This document shows positions 61,061-64,000 of a stretch of 64,000 nt of DNA, piece by piece. Under the pieces are notes generated by a model. That model was not told the DNA's origin. It searched no databases and worked only from the letters and a program-made list of their open reading frames with translations. Source of the stretch: Cucumis sativus (taxonomy: Eukaryota; Streptophyta; Magnoliopsida; Cucurbitales; Cucurbitaceae); contig NC_026660.2 of assembly GCF_000004075.3 (NCBI RefSeq), positions 29,639,498 through 29,703,497 of the forward strand, given 5' to 3'. How positions within the stretch are numbered: position 1 is the first letter of the stretch; each line of letters begins with the position of its first letter. The position numbers and the translations under genes are program-made.

Positions 61061-61176
61061 GAGAGTATTGCGGGGCAAATCTCCTTTGGCAGTTAGCTAG
61101 CGTGCTTCTTGACACAAGTCATCAAGAGCATGCATGGCATGTCTGCCAAAAGAGTAATTGCCCAGTAATGAGACTC
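61061..61176 (-). ncRNA. MIR399: MIR399 precursor (miR399d-like mature)
   Basis: The minus strand folds into a long hairpin. The 3' arm at 61071-61091 carries the 21-nt mature miRNA, beginning UGCCAAAGGAGA and ending UUGCCCCG, which matches the miR399d form I know from Arabidopsis. The 5' arm at about 61142-61163 holds the star strand (GGGCAAUUACUCUUUUGGCA). It pairs with the mature strand apart from one small bulge, one mismatch and wobbles. The terminal stem is supported by a second complementary pair, GCATGCTCTTGA with TCAAGAAGCACGC. Mature-on-3'-arm is the rule for the family. miR399 is induced by phosphate starvation, moves from shoot to root and cleaves PHO2 (UBC24) mRNA, relieving degradation of phosphate transporters. 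A TATA box and PHR1 sites lie upstream (separate entries). Confidence 0.93.
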
Positions 61177-63680: not shown

Positions 63681-63744
63681 GAATATGCTTTGGATATATA
63701 ATAGGGTATGAAGAAAGTGTAGAGTTACGTTGAATAGCATATCC
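63681..63744 (+). promoter_or_regulatory. TATA box with P1BS sites for the plus-strand MIR399
   Basis: P1BS GAATATGC at 63681-63688 is followed after a few bases by TATATAATA at 63695-63703. A second P1BS, GCATATCC, is at 63737-63744 near the predicted transcription start. The hairpin begins about 120 bases downstream of the latter. Confidence 0.65.
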
Positions 63745-63859
63745 AACATATTGTGCGAATCCCAAACCATTTAAATAATTGTGGAGAGTGTTCTGGGAAT
63801 TCCCAACTCTCTCATGTAATTTGAACAACAGTATTATTTTTCAGAAGAAGTAGCCAAGA

Positions 63860-63990
63860 ATAACAGTGCGAGTCTCTATTGGCAGAGATTTATTATTATC
63901 TCAAAGAAAAATAAAAAAATATTTTTGTTTTTGCTTCTTTTTTCGATCTTCTCCTTCTTCTGCCAAAAGAGACTTGCCCTGCCATTCCAT
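63860..63990 (+). ncRNA. MIR399: MIR399 precursor, variant mature sequence
   Basis: The plus strand folds into a hairpin. The 5' arm at 63866-63886 (star, GUGCGAGUCUCUAUUGGCAG plus A) pairs with the 3' arm at 63961-63981 (mature, beginning UGCCAAAAGAGA and ending CUUGCCCUG). Over the arms and their flanks about 24 of 29 positions are Watson-Crick paired, and one more is a G-U wobble. Arm order, length and the UGCCAAA start are those of MIR399. The mature form differs from the commonest miR399 at two internal positions: A at position 8 and C at position 13. PHO2 is the expected target, but the variant could shift target preference. The loop is A/T-rich and about 74 bases long. The precursor ends just before the window edge, so further MIR399 copies may follow. 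Confidence 0.85.
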
Positions 63991-64000
63991 TCAGCTACAC

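Follow-up and report, generated by a model that had tools for sequence, protein, structure and literature searches.

Near the end of the window, the 64,000-nt stretch of cucumber (Cucumis sativus) DNA analysed here (C6:29639498-29703497, in a genome of 226.6 Mb and 88 contigs), lies a hairpin, m2, whose 3' arm encodes a miR399. A sequence-only reading of this DNA had taken it for a second MIR399 hairpin with a divergent mature sequence, not known from other plants, and had suggested that the changed bases might alter target choice. The puzzle of m2 is one of function: it is a published member of its family with a poor predicted fit to the family's usual target. As argued below, m2 is probably an authentic MIR399 gene and a source of csa-miR399b, expressed as a PHR-driven non-coding RNA, and at best a weak guide to PHO2.

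The m2 hairpin and its relatives

The precursor, as delimited by Rfam RF00445, occupies 63854..63991 on the + strand. It scores 65.4 bits against the covariance model, above the curated cut-off of 57, and this is the highest of the 13 matches scored genome-wide (from the best 44 of 10379 candidates). The stretch 63841-64000 has a folding energy of -47.1 kcal/mol, compared with a mean of -25.5 for shuffled sequences (z -5.72), and none of 200 shuffles was equally stable. A second MIR399 hairpin thus does lie at the end of the window. Its mature 3p strand, TGCCAAAAGAGACTTGCCCTG, runs from 63961 to 63981 on the + strand, giving a 21-nt 3' arm product, UGCCAAAAGAGACUUGCCCUG, whose eighth base is A and thirteenth base C (A8 and C13), as had been noted from the sequence; an identical 21-mer is found in published small-RNA data. 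The pattern TGCCAAAGGAGANTTGCCC, with up to three mismatches, matches twice in the window against 0.04 times by chance. Compared with the UGCCAAAGGAGANUUGCCC type, which we take to be the pattern of 21-nt MIR399 3' arm products, the mature strand of m2 has a single difference, A8.

Pairing, with 2-nt 3' overhangs assumed, places the predicted star (5p), GTGCGAGTCTCTATTGGCAGA, at 63866..63886 on the + strand. The 19 paired positions of the mature/star duplex comprise 16 Watson-Crick pairs, one G-U pair (position 15) and two mismatches (positions 7 and 18). A plant MIRNA should, as we understand the criteria, form a duplex with few mismatches and yield star reads from the locus, and under the assumed overhangs the m2 duplex has few. 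The star has kept its pairing with both changed bases, through A-U at position 8 and C-G at position 13, each of them Watson-Crick. No read of the m2 star (63866-63886) appears in the available main texts on cucumber and melon miR399. m2 is an authentic MIR399 gene and an ordinary, published family member.

The 13 matches, six of which exceed the cut-off, reduce to eight places because five places match on both strands: m1, m2, m3, C1_a, C1_b, C5_a, C5_b and C5_c, the three on C5 being below cut-off. m1, the first MIR399 hairpin of the window (61061..61175, - strand; mature sequence TGCCAAAGGAGATTTGCCCCG; RF00445 59.3 bits, fold z -5.74), is a divergently oriented neighbour of m2 in the same cluster. 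m3 lies 3.1 kb downstream of m2, beyond the window (C6:29706498-29706587); its 21-mer is identical to that of m2, and the two hairpins are alike over 53 nt with 87% identity. Each is also similar to C1_a (G8, A13) along 32-35 nt, a stretch taken up in good part by the mature sequence. In the star of m1, a U stands opposite G8 in a G-U pair, and a change from G8 to A8 therefore need not break such a stem; we infer that A8 may actually have arisen by this route.

The C1 and C6 clusters each contain a divergent hairpin pair, 2.7-3.2 kb apart. The likeness between the clusters runs crosswise, m1 resembling C1_b and m2 resembling C1_a, which suggests that they may be the product of an old segmental duplication.

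Upstream motifs, transcript and published record

The P1BS motif, which we take to be GNATATNC and to bind PHR1-type factors, occurs twice upstream of m2, as expected of the miR399-PHO2 module: GAATATGC at 63681..63688, 166 nt upstream, and GCATATCC at 63737..63744, 110 nt upstream (both unstranded). Between them, a TATA-box-like TATATAATA can be read from the sequence at 63695..63703 on the + strand. A P1BS lies within 200 nt upstream of all eight MIR399 hairpins, compared with 6.3% of 400-nt stretches in a background taken from positions 1-60000 of the window; in the 10-kb C6 cluster, 4 of 11 P1BS motifs are away from any hairpin. This cluster also holds a degenerate A8 relative between m2 and m3 (C6:29705812-29705950) and a weak MIR399 relative beyond m3 (C6:29707760-29707920), with poor folds of -17.5 and -19.5 kcal/mol respectively. 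Both of these decayed MIR399-like elements keep a P1BS within 250 nt upstream.

The lincRNA CU6NC2935 has been placed, in the accessible part of its description, among the putative targets or mimics of csa-miR399b, with the site at lincRNA positions 148-130 (PMC4370693). Positions 130-148, GTGCGAGTCTCTATTGGCA, are the star arm of m2 (63866-63884); GTGCGAGTCTCTATTGGCA occurs once in the window and at one place among the genome search matches listed. It follows that the lincRNA, if unspliced, would begin at 63737, the first base of the second P1BS, and run along the + strand from about 40 nt below the TATA-like box. Since the supposed target site is the m2 star arm, CU6NC2935 is most likely the primary transcript of the m2 gene, misread as a target or mimic of miR399b. 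Another lincRNA in the same text, CU5NC2035, contains perfect complements of two csa-miR399 sequences, and these match both arms of C5 hairpins (C5:2099086-2099164 and C5:2103557-2103636). CU5NC2035 therefore appears to be transcribed antisense to a MIR399 gene.

The mature sequence of m2 is already known. The same 21-mer was printed from melon in 2011 (PMC3163571) and 2020 (PMC7327070), on the evidence of the portions seen of both papers. It appears in the former as a miR399 variant (miR399|a; three sequences, no star, 95% similarity to reference miR399) and in the latter as cme-m1429-3p, classed as novel yet similar to the miR399 family. These match m2 in sequence but come from another species. 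From cucumber, the 19-mer csa-miR399b (PMC4370693, 2015) equals 63961-63979, and the 21-mer csa-miR399 3p (PMC6238408, 2018) equals 63961-63981. Neither differs from the m2 mature strand, and the available text of the two papers names no locus of origin. The 2018 sequence is the dominant csa-miR399 3p in shoot tips, with a count of 6739. Thus the 21-mer is listed as a miR399 in two species and the variant had not gone unreported, while the 3' arm product, the lack of which from small-RNA libraries would have told against the sequence-only reading, is present there in a sequence shared with the twin m3. Those 6739 reads fit m2 and m3 equally, as their 21-mers are identical, and the 5p sequence given in the accessible text (PMC6238408) is the star of m3 rather than that of m2. 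Of the genomic sources found for the published csa-miR399b, m2 is one and m3 the other.

According to the same partly available source, the miR399 family is up at high temperature in both photoperiods, and down under long days at high temperature (PMC6238408). Elsewhere in cucumber, family levels are given, in the text consulted, as low, with 14 normalised reads in leaves and 25 in roots (PMC3316546), so dominance within the miR399 family need not equal abundance. The accessible text of a further melon study (PMC11013280) contains no miR399 sequence. LL-miR399a of Lilium lancifolium, UGCCAAAGGAGACUUGCCCUG, has C13 as in m2, but G8 rather than A8 (PMC5811567, in the part seen). Within the open-library main texts, as far as these are accessible, the only literature to combine miR399 with the 12-mer UGCCAAAAGAGA is on cucumber or melon, and A8 therefore looks Cucumis-specific.

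Pairing with the PHO2-like gene, decoys and other targets

The PHO2-like gene of cucumber spans at least 29.2412-29.2455 Mb on the - strand of C6. Its three miR399 sites are grouped in 330 nt and precede both a long reading frame encoding UBE2O-type SH3 domains and a piece of an E2 domain. The MIR399 cluster is on the same chromosome, about 455 kb away. In all three sites CCTTTGGCA stands opposite positions 9-1; position 8 faces C and position 13 faces A, so that A8 and C13 both mismatch. Positions 1-7, 9-12 and 14-19 pair, through a G-U at position 11 in one site.

Six mature types were compared by a position-weighted target score (0.5 for a G-U pair and 1 for a mismatch, doubled at positions 2-13). 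A8/C13 scores 5.5, 6 and 6.5 on the three PHO2 sites, compared with 1.0-5.0 for the five other cucumber types. The ratio of duplex energy to perfect-pairing energy is 0.59-0.66 for A8/C13 and 0.74-0.91 for the others. By both measures it is the worst of the six on every site, and the good complementarity to PHO2 expected in the miR399-PHO2 module is found at none of the three. The G8 hairpins (m1, C1_a, C1_b, C5_a, C5_b and C5_c) share with m2 the hairpin type and the upstream P1BS, but have U, A or G at position 13 and pair better with the PHO2 sites. Two central mismatches need not abolish the action of a plant miRNA. For two cucumber UBC24 (PHO2) transcripts, cleavage sites from degradome data have been attributed to cme-miR399c in the accessible text of PMC6769560, and the cme-miR399c primers printed there fit the G8/U13 type. 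The genome has one further UBE2O-type match, C2:13397745, which was dropped as a candidate miR399 target, having no site nearby among the matches listed.

Target mimics would be a second class of partner. A gapped mimic pattern matches 32 places in the genome, four of which we take, by resemblance, to be IPS1/At4-like: GGGCAACTCCCATCCTTTGGCA at C3:30252935, 30261147 and 30342953, within about 90 kb, and GGGCAACTAACATCCTTTGGCA at C6:23174446. These have C opposite position 8, and on the two sequences A8/C13 gives energy ratios of 0.51 and 0.48, compared with 0.61-0.82 for the other types. On the other distinct gapped sequences it gives 0.44-0.60, except on m1's own star (0.67). A8/C13 is the poorest fit of the six types to both the PHO2 target and the likely decoys. 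A candidate A8-specific decoy at C6:10480240, with U opposite position 8, was set aside because A8/C13 (0.60) does no better there than its paralogues (0.58-0.69).

The genome was also searched for other targets. One search listed 54 rows (7 with a reversed-pattern control), of which 42 were scored here, the other 12 being repeats or MIR399- and PHO2-region sites scored separately. Another listed 86 rows (30 with the control), of which 19 were scored, one per repeated site; 11 further distinct sequences from it scored 3.5-6.5, none at or below 3.0. Control numbers of this size imply that many listed sites are due to chance. Ten non-MIR399 sites scored 3.0 or less over 18-19 positions, and the seven inspected (all except C4:12804196, C6:16736864 and C6:6978886) score 3.5-4.5 over 21 nt. 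The site with the best partial score, C1:948087 (3.5 over 21 nt), falls, by reading of the translations, in an intron of a gene that we take to be ATM-like; in the two pieces scanned there, Pfam found no family above cut-off. Read in the same way, C4:3763707 lies across the splice acceptor of a presumably RCC1-like gene, C2:12336130 across a splice donor (in a gene assumed to be glutaminyl-tRNA-synthetase-like), C3:30949652 at the end of an intron of what we suppose is a hydrolase-like gene, and C1:29505319 in a transposable element, presumably reverse-transcriptase-like. C1:23742756 and C7:17148783 are outside any evident reading frame. There is thus no convincing new mRNA target of A8/C13 in these seven of the ten best sites, in a limited search that scored the best genomic candidates and extended to neither wobble-rich sites nor those with two mismatches plus wobbles. 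The proposal of altered target choice therefore stands in one part, the predicted weakening of PHO2 pairing by both bases at all three sites, and finds no convincing example in the other, the gain of new targets.

A probable weak guide to PHO2 and the competing readings

In the sequence of events favoured here, PHR-type factors would probably switch on m2 through the P1BS motifs, and transcription from a putative start at about 63737 would produce the non-coding RNA known as CU6NC2935. The Dicer pathway would then release the 21-nt 3p miRNA, presumably from m2 rather than only from its twin. With A8 and C13 it would meet each of the three PHO2-like sites with two mismatches in the central region, which makes m2 most likely a weak PHO2 guide at best, and the canonical MIR399 copies would do most of the PHO2 cleavage. 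Judged from predicted pairing, the effect of the m2 miRNA on PHO2 in planta is most likely weak cleavage at best.

A rather unlikely alternative is that A8/C13 regulates PHO2 at full strength, being abundant enough to offset the two mismatches, and that the differences are near-neutral. Such a role would fit the dominance of the 21-mer among miR399 3p sequences in shoot tips (PMC6238408, in the part available) and the remaining positions up to 19 that still pair with the three sites, but A8/C13 has the worst scores and energy ratios of the six types on every one of them. That it has instead been neofunctionalised towards targets presenting U to position 8 and G to position 13 seems unlikely. 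The presence of an identical 21-mer in both cucumber copies and in melon suggests selection, or else a recent origin; the best score among the seven inspected loci, however, is 3.5 over 21 nt, and, as read here, five are in introns, splice junctions or a transposable element while two have no evident frame. More doubtful still is the idea that m2 is a paralogue that yields no product, all reads coming from m3. The published 5p sequence is that of m3, as far as the source is available (PMC6238408), and the m2 star has two mismatches, but m2 ranks first among the 13 scored Rfam matches, folds strongly and has P1BS and TATA-like motifs upstream, and a published transcript carries its star arm (PMC4370693, likewise seen in part).

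Compared with m2 as an authentic gene and weak PHO2 guide, a bolder view of the duplicated Cucumis MIR399 pair is a tentative possibility: having drifted from PHO2 and from the IPS1-like decoys yet being dominant in shoot tips, it might represent a miR399 that responds to phosphate or temperature but has come loose from the classical module, and that either is idle or has other targets. The dominant miR399 3p of cucumber shoot tips is the predicted worst pairer with the cucumber PHO2-like gene, and summing all Cucumis miR399 reads may therefore overstate PHO2 repression.
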